Shown: positions 6,775-11,118 of the stretch, in pieces
How the letters are laid out: each line of letters opens with the position of its first letter
Position numbering within the stretch: the stretch's first letter is position 1
Origin: Flavisolibacter nicotianae
GTDB taxonomy: Bacteria > Bacteroidota > Bacteroidia > Chitinophagales > Chitinophagaceae
Direction: 5' to 3'
Length of the DNA: 64,000 nucleotides
NCBI RefSeq assembly: GCF_003628535.1
Contig: NZ_RBCI01000001.1
Location: 310,001-374,000, forward strand
Translations under genes and position numbers: made by a program
Notes under the pieces: model-generated
The model's input: only the letters and a program-made list of their open reading frames with translations
Databases searched by the model: none
Told to the model about the DNA's origin: nothing

Positions 6775-7890
6775 TTAAAACAATTTTCCCTGCTCACCCG
6801 GCCGTCTGAATTGGGAACAGTCCAATCCCAACCGCTCGTGGCGCAAGCCATATTTTTTCGTGAACGTGTTGTATTGATCGGCCACCAGTTTTGCGATGTT
6901 GCCTTCGCCCCGCATCCGTCTTCCAAACTGGCTGTCGTTTACTTTGCCGCCATGGCTTTCTTCAATGAAATGCCAGACCTTGTCGGCACGGTCGGGAAAG
7001 TTTTTGTGCAGCCAGTCGTGGAAAAGAAACTTGACGGCGCCATTTAACCGAATGAAGGTGTACGCAGAAAAAACAGCGCCGGCCTCGCTGGCCGCTTTGA
7101 TAATGCCAGGCATTTCCTGATCGTTCAGTCCAGGGATCACCGGTCCCAGCATCACGCCGGTTTGCACACCGGCCCTGCTCAAGGCTTCCAGTGTACGCAG
7201 CCGCTGTGCAGACGTCGTGGTTCGCGGTTCCATGACCCGGCGAAGGTCTTCATTCATCGAGGTGATCGTCATCAGCACGGAAACAATGCGCTTCCCTGCC
7301 ATCTCCTGCAAGAGGTCTTTGTCGCGCAGGATGCCGGCGTTCTTGGTGATGATGCCAACGGGCTGGTTGAATTCGTTGCAGACCTCCAGCAAGGCTCTTG
7401 ACAGGCGAAAGCGTTTTTCAGCCGGTTGATAGCAATCGGTGTTGCCGCTCATGCTGATGGGCACGCAGTCCCATTTGGGATGTTGCAGGAACTTGCGCAG
7501 CAGTTTGGGCGCCTCTTTTTTTACCAGGATCTTGCTTTCAAAATCAAGGCCTGCACTGTAGCCCCAGTATTCAAACGAATTACGGGCATAACAATAAATG
7601 CAGCCGTGTTCACAGCCCTGGTACGGGTTCATGCTGTAAAACATCCCCACGTCCGGGCTGTCTACCTTGTTCACAATGCTCTTTGCCGACACATCGATGT
7701 ATTGTGTTCGCACGTCTTCCTCTATCCATTCGTCGATGGCTTCGATGTGCTCCCTTGCGGTTGACGTTTTCTCGAAGCTGTTGCGTGTGTTGAACTGTGC
7801 CCCACGCCCTTTTTTATACTCCTCTTCACCTTCCTTTTCGTTTCCCAGGTGACCCAAATGCTTTTTCGTCCGTAAAATATGGTCTGCCAT
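6775..7890 (-). CDS. PA0069-type radical SAM protein with C-terminal QGKLF
   Basis: 371 residues. The N-terminus contains the KGRGAQFNTRNSFE segment typical of the PA0069/Rv2578c subfamily, followed by the radical SAM cluster motif CEHGCIYC (Cys93, Cys97, Cys100), then YAR and a TIM-barrel fold distantly like spore photoproduct lyase. Members are SAM enzymes of unconfirmed reaction; a nucleic-acid substrate has been suggested from the resemblance to SplB. The last five residues are QGKLF, a good match to the beta-clamp binding pentapeptide. The neighbours (SRAP, 2H-like, UmuD/C) are damage-response genes, and two also end near QGxLF, so a role at replication or repair sites is a reasonable inference. 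Confidence 0.88.
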   Translation of the reverse strand: MADHILRTKKHLGHLGNEKEGEEEYKKGRGAQFNTRNSFEKTSTAREHIEAIDEWIEEDVRTQYIDVSAKSIVNKVDSPDVGMFYSMNPYQGCEHGCIYCYARNSFEYWGYSAGLDFESKILVKKEAPKLLRKFLQHPKWDCVPISMSGNTDCYQPAEKRFRLSRALLEVCNEFNQPVGIITKNAGILRDKDLLQEMAGKRIVSVLMTITSMNEDLRRVMEPRTTTSAQRLRTLEALSRAGVQTGVMLGPVIPGLNDQEMPGIIKAASEAGAVFSAYTFIRLNGAVKFLFHDWLHKNFPDRADKVWHFIEESHGGKVNDSQFGRRMRGEGNIAKLVADQYNTFTKKYGLRHERLGLDCSQFRRPGEQGKLF

Positions 7891-7926
7891 AGCTGGTTTG
7901 GTTTACATACCCCTTCAATCCCAAAT

Positions 7927-8016
7927 CCATTCGCACAATCATTATCCCATTATCAAATTATCCTATTATCGAATTCTCACATTACCCCATTTTCCTATTT
8001 TCACATTTTCAAATTA
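7927..8016. repeat. AT-rich CACATT/AAATTAT short-period repeat
   Basis: A degenerate repeat of units such as CATTATC, AAATTAT and CACATTTTC fills the gap before the SRAP gene. The last 15 bases (8002-8016) recur exactly at 26149-26163, next to the batC gene. No promoter box could be picked out within it. Confidence 0.5.
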
Positions 8017-8021
8017 GCGCC

Positions 8022-8762
8022 ATGTGTTACCATTACTCCCTTACCAAAAAGCAGGAAGAGATCATGCGGATGGTCCAGGCCGAGTGGGAACAGCCTTTTG
8101 AGCCGGTGTTTCATACCTCGGGTTTCAACTTTCCGCAAATGCCGGTCATTACCTCCGAAAAACCAGGCACGGTTCAACTTTACCACTGGGGCCTGATCCC
8201 GCACTGGGTAAAGTCGCTGGCCGACGCGGACAAGATCCGGACACAAACGCTGAATGCACGGGCCGAAAGCATTTTTGAAAAACCCGCTTTCCGCTCCTAC
8301 ACCAAGAACCGTTGCATTGTGCTCGCCGACGGCTTTTTCGAATGGATGGAGTACAAAAAGAAAAAATACCCGCACTATGTCTACCTCGATGGCTTTGACA
8401 TTTTCGGCTTTGCCGGGCTGTATGGCCATTGGACCGACAAAGAAACCGGCGAGATCCTGCACACCTTTTCCATCATCACCACCGACGCCAATCCGTTGAT
8501 GGCCCGCATCCACAACACCAAGCAGCGCATGCCAGTTATTCTTCAAAAAGAGCAATGGCCGCAGTGGCTGGAACCATCGCTCACCAAAGAACAAATGGCG
8601 CAAATGCTGTTCCCCTGCGACGACAAAAAGATGAAAGCGTACCCCATCTCAAAACTGATCACCACCCGCGGCGCCGAGACCAATGTGGCGCAGATCAAAG
8701 AGCCCTTTACCTACCCGGAGCTTGTTTCATCCGAACAAGGTTCCCTGTTTGACAGTTTGTGA
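8022..8762 (+). CDS. SRAP / HMCES-family abasic-site shield protein
   Basis: 246 residues beginning MCYHYSL: Cys2, exposed as the N-terminus after Met removal, is the catalytic residue that forms a thiazolidine crosslink with abasic sites in single-stranded DNA. The family motifs follow: LNARAESI, CIVLADGFFEWM with the active glutamate, and HNTKQRMPVIL with the conserved histidine. Length is normal for YedK/HMCES. The tail reads SSEQGSLFDSL, with QGSLF at residues 239-243, resembling the clamp-binding pentapeptide; the human HMCES has a PCNA-binding motif at its C-terminus, which makes this plausible. The last 36 bp overlap the convergent 2H-like gene. Function is well supported; clamp binding is inferred. 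Confidence 0.93.
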   Translation: MCYHYSLTKKQEEIMRMVQAEWEQPFEPVFHTSGFNFPQMPVITSEKPGTVQLYHWGLIPHWVKSLADADKIRTQTLNARAESIFEKPAFRSYTKNRCIVLADGFFEWMEYKKKKYPHYVYLDGFDIFGFAGLYGHWTDKETGEILHTFSIITTDANPLMARIHNTKQRMPVILQKEQWPQWLEPSLTKEQMAQMLFPCDDKKMKAYPISKLITTRGAETNVAQIKEPFTYPELVSSEQGSLFDSL

Positions 8763-9332
8763 TAGGGAGGCAAATTCGAACCGGCGCACTTCTTCGTACT
8801 GGTGGTTGACAATTCCCCGCTTCATCAGTACCATGCTGCCCGCCATAAACCGCCCGGTAAACTGGGTGTGCTCACAATCCATCCAGATACGGGTAAACTG
8901 GAACGGCTTTAGCTTCTGGGCAATGAGGAGGTGCGGTTCGTGAATGAAATGCGGATCGTGGTCAGGCACCTTTGTCAATGACTTCACCACTTTCAGCTCC
9001 TTTGCCAGCTCGTGAAATGGGCTGCGGGTCGCTACATGCAGGTAAACTGTATGCGACGGATAGGCCGCAAAATTTTTCAACTCCACCCGGAACGCACCGG
9101 TGCGGGTGGCCACCTGCTGCATGCGTTCGACCAGCTTGGCTTCCATCCCTTCGTAGGCATGACAATGAAGAACGGTGAGCGAAGGCTTTAGCTCAAACGG
9201 CAGCGGAAGCCGGTAGCGGTCGTGCAGCTCTTTACGTATTTGCATCACAGTTTGCTGCAACGCTTCACTCAGGGGAACAATCAAACGATACTCGCAGATC
9301 CGGTGACCGGGCATGACCAATGCGTTACTCAT
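8727..9332 (-). CDS. 2'-5' RNA ligase-like (2H phosphoesterase fold) protein with QGTLF tail
   Basis: 201 residues resembling the LigT/2'-5' RNA ligase-like 2H superfamily. The two catalytic HxS/T motifs are degraded: the first position reads HCHA (residues 56-59) and the second HLLI (134-137), so neither keeps the Ser/Thr. It may bind rather than cut nucleic acid ends. The C-terminus SLSQTVKQGTLFG carries QGTLF, a clamp-motif look-alike also found in the neighbours. The gene is divergent from umuD (83-bp intergenic region with an 18-bp palindrome) and its 3' end overlaps the SRAP gene by 36 bp. The fold is likely; the activity is unknown. Confidence 0.75.
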   Translation of the reverse strand: MSNALVMPGHRICEYRLIVPLSEALQQTVMQIRKELHDRYRLPLPFELKPSLTVLHCHAYEGMEAKLVERMQQVATRTGAFRVELKNFAAYPSHTVYLHVATRSPFHELAKELKVVKSLTKVPDHDPHFIHEPHLLIAQKLKPFQFTRIWMDCEHTQFTGRFMAGSMVLMKRGIVNHQYEEVRRFEFASLSQTVKQGTLFG

Positions 9333-9369
9333 ATGGTTGGTTTTTACAGTTGTGAATAACCTAATTTCC

Positions 9370-9387
9370 TTAGTACGAAATTACTAA
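9370..9387. promoter_or_regulatory. Palindromic candidate operator between 2H-like gene and umuD
   Basis: TTAGTA-N6-TACTAA is a perfect inverted repeat 28 bp before the umuD start and 37 bp before the divergent 2H-like start. On the minus strand it covers TAATTTCG (9383-9376), a one-mismatch match to the TAnnTTTG -7 box of the 2H gene, with TTTG 18 bp upstream of that. This is the geometry of a repressor site that would control both genes; an SOS-type regulator is the obvious candidate, but none lies in the window. Confidence 0.5.
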
Positions 9388-9415
9388 ATAACTTAGCATT
9401 ACAAAACCACGGATC

Positions 9416-9844
9416 ATGGAAGGGGATAACTTTTTTTACGCATCGTACAAAGGCTCGAAAGATTTTACACAGCAGCAGGTACACACCGCCAATGCCACCG
9501 GCTTTGGCGCGGCTGCCGATGATTATGCAGAGAGAGGCATTGATTTGAATGAGCACCTGGTCAAAAACAAACCCGCGACGTTTTTTCTCCGCGTGAACAG
9601 CGATGCGATGGTCGGCGCCGGTGTGCACGTAGGCGATGTGGTCATCGTGGACCGCTCGCTGGAACCAAAGAATGGCCGCCTTGTCATTGCCGTTGTTGAC
9701 GGGGAATTACTCATCCGCAAACTGGAGATCAACAACAACCAGACACGGTTGACAACCGCGAACAAACGATTAGCCTCCCTGGATGTTACCGGAATGCAAC
9801 TGCACATTTGGGGGGTGGTCACCTACGTTATCCACAAAGCATGA
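9416..9844 (+). CDS. umuD: UmuD-like protein lacking the Ser/Lys protease dyad
   Basis: 142 residues, clearly UmuD by alignment with E. coli at a constant offset of four: AADDYAERGIDLNEHL and GAGVHVGDVVIVDRSL match well. However, the catalytic Ser60 position is Ala64 (SDAM instead of GDSM) and the Lys97 position is Arg101 (IRKL instead of VKKL). The glycine of the cleavage site is kept (Thr28-Gly29). As read, the protein should not cut itself or others in the usual way. The gene overlaps umuC in an ATGA start-stop junction, so the two are made together as a Pol V-type unit. Assignment is firm; loss of self-cleavage is inferred from the missing residues. Confidence 0.9.
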   Translation: MEGDNFFYASYKGSKDFTQQQVHTANATGFGAAADDYAERGIDLNEHLVKNKPATFFLRVNSDAMVGAGVHVGDVVIVDRSLEPKNGRLVIAVVDGELLIRKLEINNNQTRLTTANKRLASLDVTGMQLHIWGVVTYVIHKA

Positions 9845-11118
9845 AAGCCATCGTCGACTGCAATTCATTTTATTGTTCCTGCGAAAAAGTGTTTCAGCCT
9901 TCACTGCACAACCAACCCGTTGTGGTGCTAAGCAACAACGATGGCTGTATCATTTCACGCAGCGATGAAGCAAAACAGCTTGGCGTTGGCATGGCAGGCC
10001 CCTATTTTCTTGCCCGGCCCCTGATTGAAAAACACAACGTGGCGGTCTTCTCGTCCAACTACAATTTATACGGTGATATGAGCTGGCGGGTAATGGATGT
10101 GTTGAAGCAGACCGTTGGCGCGGAAAACGTGGAAGTGTATTCGGTTGATGAGGCATTCCTGCACCTGGAGCAGTACACCACCGGGCAACTTCAAACCTTA
10201 TCCGAATACTTGCGGGATACGGTGGAGCAGTGGACCAGTATTCGTGTGTCCATCGGCGTGGGCCCCACTAAAACACTGGCTAAAATAGCCAACAGGATGG
10301 CAAAGCAGGACAAGCAACGTTCGCAGTGCATTCTTCTTTTCGATACCGACGAAAAAATACGGGAAGCCCTTAAAATCACCCGTGTGCGGGAGATCTGGGG
10401 CGTTGGCAGCCGCTATGCCGACAAGCTGGAGCAAAGGGGCATCCGCACGGCCTGGGACCTGCAGAACCTTTCGGAAGAATGGGCCCGGAAAAACCTGGGC
10501 GGCGTGGTTGGCGTTCGCCTGATTAAAGAACTTCGCGGCGAGCCCGCCATTGAAATGAAGGATGCGCTTGAAACAAAAAAAATGATTGCCACTACGCGTA
10601 TGTTCGGCTGCACGGTCACCGAGCTGAAAGACCTGAAAGAAGCTGTTGCCACCTACGCGGCACGGGCCGCTGAAAAACTGCGGCGCCAGAACGGTGCCGC
10701 CGCTATGATTAGCACCTTCCTGGTGTCGCAGGAAAAAATCGATGGCCCGCGGTTTCGCCACGGTCCGACCACCAGTGCCTGTACCACGCTGCTGCAACCC
10801 ACGGCGCTGACCAACGAATTGATCAAACCCGCCGTTCGCATGGCGGAGCAGTTGTTTGTGCCCGGCAAAAAATACAAAAAGGCCGGTGTCATTTTAAGCG
10901 GCATTGTTCCGGATTCTTCCATCCAGTCCAACCTGTTTGAACCCACCCAAAGCATTGGCCGCTTTTTGATGGAACAAATCGACAACATCAATTTCAGCAT
11001 GCGGGGCGACGTGGTAAAGTTTGCCGCGTCGGGGACAAAGCGGGACTGGAAGATGCGGCAGGCCTTTCATTCGCCGCGCTACACCACGCGGTGGGATGAG
11101 TTGTGCAAGGTCAGATAG
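9841..11118 (+). CDS. umuC: UmuC-type Y-family DNA polymerase
   Basis: 425 residues starting at the ATG that overlaps the umuD stop. It has the Y-family palm motifs MKAIVDCNSFYCSCE (metal Asp6, steric gate Tyr11) and YSVDEAFL (Asp103/Glu104), the helix-hairpin-helix region TRVREIWGVGSRYADKL, and the little-finger and C-terminal UmuC domain. IQSNLFEP at residues 361-368 contains QSNLF where E. coli UmuC has its beta-clamp motif QLNLF, so clamp binding is probably kept. It makes translesion DNA synthesis after damage. All catalytic residues are present. Its 3' end overlaps the convergent dehydrogenase-like gene by 8 bp. Confidence 0.95.
   Translation: MKAIVDCNSFYCSCEKVFQPSLHNQPVVVLSNNDGCIISRSDEAKQLGVGMAGPYFLARPLIEKHNVAVFSSNYNLYGDMSWRVMDVLKQTVGAENVEVYSVDEAFLHLEQYTTGQLQTLSEYLRDTVEQWTSIRVSIGVGPTKTLAKIANRMAKQDKQRSQCILLFDTDEKIREALKITRVREIWGVGSRYADKLEQRGIRTAWDLQNLSEEWARKNLGGVVGVRLIKELRGEPAIEMKDALETKKMIATTRMFGCTVTELKDLKEAVATYAARAAEKLRRQNGAAAMISTFLVSQEKIDGPRFRHGPTTSACTTLLQPTALTNELIKPAVRMAEQLFVPGKKYKKAGVILSGIVPDSSIQSNLFEPTQSIGRFLMEQIDNINFSMRGDVVKFAASGTKRDWKMRQAFHSPRYTTRWDELCKVR

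Follow-up and report, generated by a model that had tools for sequence, protein, structure and literature searches.

Why should neighbouring genes of a DNA-damage cluster, encoding proteins of unrelated folds, carry the same short peptide? The question is raised by a 64,000-nucleotide stretch of the Flavisolibacter nicotianae genome (RefSeq assembly GCF_003628535.1, contig NZ_RBCI01000001.1, positions 310,001 to 374,000), hereafter the window, in which a PA0069-family radical SAM protein (rSAM), an SRAP protein, a LigT-like 2H protein and a UmuC-type polymerase each contain a QxxLF pentapeptide of the type that binds the beta sliding clamp (DnaN). We propose, with a probability of roughly 0.8, an SOS translesion cassette in which C-terminal peptides would tether the accessory proteins to the clamp. 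All four pentapeptides were found at the positions given in a preliminary description of this DNA. Its claim that four neighbours share the motif holds for their presence, but not for four independent motifs, an idea that was rejected because SRAP and 2H encode theirs in the same 18 bp of DNA: there are three independent motifs and one antisense copy. The features are listed below by position in the window.

6775-7890, minus strand: PA0069-family radical SAM protein (rSAM), 371 amino acids, CxxxCxxC at residues 93-100 (NF033668, PF04055)
6778-6792, minus strand: QGKLF, C-terminal clamp-type motif of rSAM (sequence; family conservation)
8022-8762, plus strand: SRAP (YedK/HMCES-type), 246 amino acids (PF02586, 189 bits)
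8736-8750, plus strand: QGSLF, clamp-type motif of SRAP (tail QGSLFDSL), antisense to the 2H motif (codon table)
8727-8762, both strands: convergent SRAP/2H overlap, 36 bp, codon-aligned (codon table; genus genomes)
8727-9332, minus strand: 2H (LigT-like) protein, 201 amino acids, both HxTx catalytic motifs degenerate (PF13563, 38.8 bits, cut-off 27; alignment A3)
8733-8747, minus strand: QGTLF, clamp-type motif of 2H (tail QGTLFG) (sequence; family conservation)
9416-9844, plus strand: UmuD-type autoproteolytic subunit (NF007621, 128.6 bits, cut-off 110)
9841-11118, plus strand: UmuC-type Y-family polymerase with a DUF4113 C-terminus (PF00817, PF11799, PF13438)
10924-10938, plus strand: QSNLF, internal clamp motif of UmuC, residues 362-366 (sequence; relatives)

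Such peptides are rare at the ends of other proteins. Among 367 genes of at least 100 amino acids in 464 kb of the same genome (the window and 20 further stretches, cluster included), the pattern Q..[LIM][FL] falls within the last ten residues of three, and these are the rSAM, SRAP and 2H genes of the cluster; a wider tail pattern is found in four. A background set of 737 non-cluster genes, from 80 named-genome loci, has four instances of the narrow pattern and two of strict QxxLF. The tail of UmuD carries no clamp motif.

Conservation of the tails had been set beforehand as a point on which the proposal could fail. A QxxLF-type tail, in its looser form, is kept in 121 of 130 non-redundant rSAMs, against about 1% expected from composition, and in 58 of the 63 best 2H copies, taking one best copy per locus. 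The rSAMs came from searches of 298 genomes of the order, 197 of the class, 46 genomes behind named loci and plasmid records; the counts cover matches fetched as loci, and the window is included in each family count. Redundant entries were filtered out by word sharing, with no strict identity cut, which gave 132 rows longer than 320 amino acids, and two of these were set aside (L244, whose frame runs past the family end, and L279, which has no in-frame family C-terminus). Fragments were excluded from the count; one, L263, ends QLNLF. Alignments A1 and A2 (rSAM) and A3 (40 of the best 2H copies) were picked by hand, mostly among tailed rows, and their tail columns were not used as counts. Counts for 2H, SRAP and UmuC use the loci gathered before the genus search described below.

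The rSAM tail behaves as a conserved element in its own right. The window protein is a full-length match to NF033668 at 469.8 bits (cut-off 360) and also matches PF04055, and its Cys93, Cys97 and Cys100 are invariant in A1 and A2, with 55 picked sequences compared; the NF033668 entry, for its part, names neither a function nor a clamp motif. The tail is strict QxxLF in 112 rows. Among the last 25 positions the most conserved are -5, with Gln in 105 of 130 rows, -2, with Leu in 105, and -1, with Phe in 102, and most residues ahead of the tail vary while the tail is kept. Even the nine misses retain parts of it, for example GESLRLF, QLSLGLDF, QIGLGI and RPSLFST. The tail is present in 57 of 59 rows inside the window's family, in 64 of 71 outside it, and in 19 of 19 from outside the Bacteroidota (Proteobacteria, Planctomycetes, Acidobacteria). 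When the last 25 residues are left out of the tree, the tail-less rows fall in scattered places (8 changes, shuffled mean 8.8), and we infer, with no more than a midpoint root, an ancestral tail. Six matches scoring under the family cut-off were fetched, and none has it. Among further relatives, two from the Actinomycetota end QLRLL and QEPLF, one from the Gemmatimonadota ends QLSLGI, a six-residue form, and a Runella plasmid relative has no tail.

Two observations on rSAM genes may be recorded here. On a conjugative plasmid of Runella slithyformis (L340) a small tail-less radical SAM gene lies between HipA genes and a UvrD-helicase gene. Two rSAM genes, at L161 and L347, are each broken into two reading frames, and their ends are still tagged (QGRLF and QGSLF).

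Short motifs do arise often, and relatives are not independent, which is what a reading of the shared peptides as chance or mere common descent would draw on. The motif is nevertheless confined to three of 367 genes in its own genome, all neighbours and of unrelated folds, occurs in four of 737 background genes, and is kept in rSAM at 121 of 130, against the 1% expected, while the preceding linker changes. Chance was rejected on these figures, and we regard the reading as a whole as exceedingly improbable.

The residues of the tails bear on which partner they bind. Papers identified here by PMC number are cited from partial text. The reviewed clamp-motif consensus is Q-aliphatic-x-[L/M]-[F/L]; test peptides with Val, Ala or Gly at position 2 lose affinity, though less than when the Gln is altered (PMC11139829). 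All four window motifs have Gln at position 1 and [L/M][F/L] at positions 4-5. Over the 112 strict rSAM tails position 2 is Leu in 48, Gly in 35, Met in 14 and Ile in 3. Within the window's family, where rSAM tails are mostly QGxLF, Gly fills this position in 33 of 56 strict rSAM tails, and it does so in 40 of 54 strict 2H tails, unlike the PMC11139829 consensus; this could mean that the tails are real conserved motifs for another partner, such as RecA, SSB or a protease. Outside the family, however, position 2 is Leu in 37 of 56 strict rSAM tails, the commonest being QLSLF, QLKLF and QLRLF, which are close to the published consensus QL[S/D]LF (PMC3716654); and DinB of the same genome ends QLVLF. 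Another partner therefore seems improbable.

Further controls come from the same genome. Besides DinB, a second Y-family polymerase has QMNLF. Both DnaE proteins of the genome extend beyond the ends of their loci. DnaN is intact (373 amino acids) and matches solved clamps; its presumed pocket segments, mapped through alignments to clamps other than that of E. coli itself, read VATDAHRL and VMPL, and the pocket residues of the E. coli clamp are Gly174/His175 and Met362/Pro363 (PMC3716654). The window tails resemble those of Pol II and Pol IV in being Q-x-x-L-F pentapeptides at the extreme C-terminus; they differ in that the tagged proteins are not polymerases, that Gly is found at position 2 in the family, and that clamp binding is predicted from sequence.

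In UmuC, QSNLF at residues 362-366 matches the place of QLNLF in E. coli UmuC (357-361; PMC3716654), as the preliminary description had said, and 10 of 12 non-redundant full-length UmuC relatives have Q..LF somewhere in their final 110 residues. The protein scores 368.5 bits over its full length against NF002955 (Pol V UmuC subfamily), under the cut-off of 431, and is placed in the Y family by Pfam. The locus is thus like E. coli Pol V (UmuD'2C, QLNLF) in pairing UmuD with a UmuC that has an internal Q-x-N-L-F at the corresponding place. It is unlike Pol V in that umuDC is flanked by rSAM, SRAP and 2H genes with C-terminal motifs of their own, and in its Bacteroidota LexA-type operators. These operators, CTAA-N5-TTAG, are recognized by Bacteroidetes LexA-like repressors (PMC8565304), and two exact copies stand in the region between 2H and umuD:

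9361-9373, plus strand: CTAA-N5-TTAG site (Bacteroidota LexA-like operator), 2H/umuD divergent promoter
9384-9396, plus strand: second CTAA-N5-TTAG site, 2H/umuD divergent promoter

Two sites were reached in 4 of 100 shuffles of the window, and a site precedes umuD in 52 of 53 loci, overlapping loci of the same genomes counted. Elsewhere in the same genome (L182:3567-4316; C1, about 183.6 kb) a protein with HTH_3 and peptidase S24 domains has two CTAA-N5-TTAG sites just upstream and is likely to be this genome's non-canonical LexA. In both respects the locus resembles the regulon of PMC8565304, in which umuDC, splB and COG2135 are named as SOS-regulated in some species. It departs from that regulon in having no site at the rSAM/SRAP promoter, and that paper nowhere uses the word "clamp". 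An unannotated open reading frame (L192:2611-3972) also has a CTAA-N5-TTAG site at its start and is possibly another SOS gene.

Runs resembling operons place the same proteins beside polymerases in other genomes. L308 carries on one strand rSAM (QLELF), a dinB-2H fusion, SRAP and dnaE, and L309 and L310 carry, likewise on one strand, a Y-family polymerase, SRAP (QGTLF and QRELF, respectively), dnaE and rSAM (QLKLF and QLSLF); the polymerases of L308 and L309 were assigned by Pfam, that of L310 by similarity. In print, SRAP has been placed beside UmuC, DinB or DnaE2, SplB-like rSAMs in SOS neighbourhoods and DnaE2 with PolY in Bacteroidetes (PMC3765255, PMC12926913, PMC6511836). The window agrees with the neighbourhoods of Aravind 2013 (PMC3765255) and with the SRAP-UmuC pairing of PMC12926913, and it differs from them in the clamp tail, the 2H partner and the 2H-polymerase fusion, which do not appear in their partial texts; the word "clamp" is absent from the former paper, and "radical SAM", "LigT" and "RNA ligase" are absent from the latter. 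Literature searches, judged for the papers listed by titles, word counts and abstract starts and with preprints and most subscription journals outside their scope, found no report of clamp motifs on PA0069 rSAM, SRAP or 2H. The proposal of a coordinated, clamp-recruited set draws support from these runs of rSAM, SRAP, DnaE and Y-family polymerase and from the 2H-polymerase fusions; two Y-family polymerases of the window's genome carry the same type of peptide (QLVLF in DinB, QMNLF in the second). Clamp recruitment of the cluster proteins, as a prediction from sequence, is well supported.

The same neighbourhoods bear on what rSAM does. It could be clamp-tethered and yet act on RNA or protein, the clamp serving for placement only. 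Its sequence matches no DNA-repair rSAM of known structure: a PDB profile search gave eight hits, the best being SkfB and NifB, with no spore photoproduct lyase among them, and a PDB sequence search with rSAM alone returned no rSAM. The runs with SRAP, DnaE and Y-family polymerases speak for DNA instead, as do the membership of SplB (COG1533) in the Bacteroidetes SOS network (PMC8565304) and the SplB-like rSAMs of SOS neighbourhoods (PMC3765255), although these may be another subfamily. We consider a DNA lesion the likeliest substrate, and RNA or protein possible but rather unlikely.

The 2H protein has degenerate catalytic motifs and is a candidate accessory factor of polymerases. LigT-like 2H phosphoesterases are defined by two HxTx catalytic motifs. 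The window protein matches the PF13563 profile and has lost both (SLTV and HLLI in alignment A3), and it was rejected as an active phosphoesterase on this ground; by a positional pattern, both motifs occur in only 25 of the 63 best copies, which are 21-51% identical to the window copy. Second 2H copies are tailed in 1 of 18 cases and are a built-in control for the tail. The gene adjoining rSAM in the window's family is 2H in 27 of 29 loci with 1.5-kb flanks, and a 2H neighbour was found in 17 of 24 chosen family loci (mostly 3-kb flanks). Three genomes of one family have 2H as a C-terminal extension of a Pol III alpha polymerase (L305 and L306 by Pfam, L307 by BLAST and length only), and at L305 a Y-family polymerase gene lies beside the fusion; from context we infer that the fused alpha polymerases are DnaE2. 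In three genomes of two families it is fused to DinB (L308 and L312 by Pfam, L313 by BLAST); there the polymerase part keeps QINLF, QINLF or QIDLF, and the fused 2H domain is tail-less. From the fusions taken with the tagged free copies it would therefore follow that 2H reaches error-prone polymerases either covalently or through a clamp-type peptide of its own, and 2H probably serves these enzymes as an adaptor, itself weakly catalytic or not catalytic at all. In relatives (L121, L126, L144, L158 and others) a tail-less second 2H gene often adjoins the tagged one.

The most surprising part of the set is the motif encoded on both strands. SRAP begins MC, so that Cys2 is present, and its active-site Asn, Glu and His were identified by eye; their roles and the abasic-site chemistry are described in PMC9436759. 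The preliminary description likened the tags to a C-terminal PCNA motif of human HMCES; the partial text of one HMCES paper makes no such statement. Where its gene runs into that of 2H, the sequence GAA CAA GGT TCC CTG TTT (8733-8750) specifies EQGSLF when the plus strand is read and KQGTLF when the minus strand is. A search of the genus gave an SRAP match in 17 of 18 genomes and returned 12 loci, in ten of which, the window included, SRAP lies beside rSAM and 2H; the other two are a locus truncated by a contig end and one whose flanks lack the cluster. Of those ten, eight (the window and seven genomes) have an SRAP/2H overlap of 33-39 bp in phase 0 with the motif on both strands, as the pairs EQGSLF/KQGTLF (three), KQGSLF/KQGTLF (one), EQFSLF/KQGELF (two) and EQASLF/KQGCLF (two); L034 and L349, apparently one and the same genome, were counted once, as L349. 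The SRAP motif is absent from four loci: the remaining two of the ten, L344 and L347, which have no overlap, and two named loci, L035 with a gap and L038 with an overlap of 9 bp. The tag thus occurs in 8 of 8 SRAPs with the overlap and in none of the 4 with no overlap or too short a one (chance 0.002, ignoring relatedness). The 2H tag is often found in the family at loci that lack SRAP, and it is therefore most likely that the SRAP tag was written over that of 2H.

The overprinted SRAP tag can be read in two ways. Codons for Gln (CAR) and Leu (YTG), and for Phe (TTY) and Lys or Glu (RAA), are reverse complements, and [K/E]QxxLF can therefore be its own antisense, which would make QGSLF of SRAP a mere coding by-product of running through the 2H tail and leave rSAM, 2H and UmuC as the only users of clamp motifs. 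The strict dependence on overlap fits such a by-product, as do the 10 of 112 rSAM tails that by chance read QxxLF in codon-aligned antisense, and locus L344, where an in-frame stop closes SRAP ahead of an antisense stretch that still reads KQLSLF. Yet an antisense QxxLF is seen in only 2 of 52 other 2H tails. The shared 18 bp exist in five DNA versions, all of whose differences are free or silent in both motifs, which, in rows that are related, hints at constraint on both; and SRAPs of unrelated genomes, for example at L309, L013 and L092, have the motif without a long antisense frame. We judge the by-product account quite possible, if not probable, and the overprinted tag is possibly functional.

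The motif positions, their conservation, the controls, the gene and fusion context, the operators and the overlap are established from sequence; on that basis the predicted clamp binding, the exchange, the substrate of rSAM, the role of 2H and the use of the SRAP tag would fit together as follows. Upon damage a LexA-like repressor would release the divergent 2H/umuDC promoter. Pol V would dock on the clamp through its internal QSNLF, and rSAM (QGKLF) and 2H (QGTLF) would dock on the same kind of pocket, so that at a stalled fork repair and bypass factors could exchange on a clamp's two pockets. SRAP would cap abasic sites in single-stranded DNA, rSAM would probably act on a DNA lesion by radical chemistry, and 2H would probably serve error-prone polymerases as an adaptor of little or no catalytic activity. 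In the genus, SRAP would have gained its tag by running antisense through that of 2H.

Several observations weigh against this clamp-tethered SOS cassette. Position 2 of the window motifs is Gly, Gly, Gly and Ser, not aliphatic as in the PMC11139829 consensus, and because of this we describe the window proteins as working like clamp binders and not as proven members of that class; they may be weaker binders, and weaker binding would suit exchange on the clamp. The window interval from rSAM to SRAP contains no exact CTAA-N5-TTAG site (the best has two mismatches). In relatives, overlapping loci counted, 6 of 95 loci have one at most 250 nt from rSAM, and 0 of 8 have one that close to SRAP; upstream of rSAM outside the window's family the count is 6 of 75. 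Given the rarity of sites in relatives and the lack of an exact one nearby, SOS control of the window rSAM and SRAP is only tentative. Outside the window's family rSAM is usually alone, with 2H present in none of 16 loci and in 1 of 34, and with few recurrent neighbours, and the seven chosen family loci that lack a 2H neighbour hold the most distant rSAMs fetched in the family. The motif survey suggested in the preliminary description finds the rSAM tail throughout its family (121 of 130) and in several phyla; in SRAP, by contrast, the motif is a minority trait, present in 12 of 100 SRAPs (two of the overprinted kind) against 11 of 737 background genes by the same pattern. The SRAP motif is not independent of that of 2H, could be an antisense by-product, and is missing from the SRAP of the L308 run.

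Taken jointly, the boldest claims are that, in this genus, the 18 bp give SRAP and 2H working clamp tags on both strands, that old, multi-phylum rSAMs act on DNA while clamp-tethered, and that a mostly catalytically decayed 2H serves error-prone polymerases by fusion or by tag; we would put this combination somewhat short of an even bet. The analysis turns an unstudied multi-phylum radical SAM family into a testable candidate for a clamp-tethered DNA enzyme, the interaction being open to tests with short peptides and the prediction, through the family-wide tail, to checks in common laboratory strains. It proposes 2H, with evidence from fusions, as a new accessory domain of translesion polymerases, and it offers a concrete case of one short interaction motif encoded on both DNA strands.

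An anti-phage role was considered and dropped, as the four proteins tested gave 0 matches to PADLOC models. One further feature was seen in the region between rSAM and SRAP:

7940-8007: degenerate tandem repeat, 8/16/24-bp, CATTATCC-like, in the rSAM/SRAP divergent promoter region

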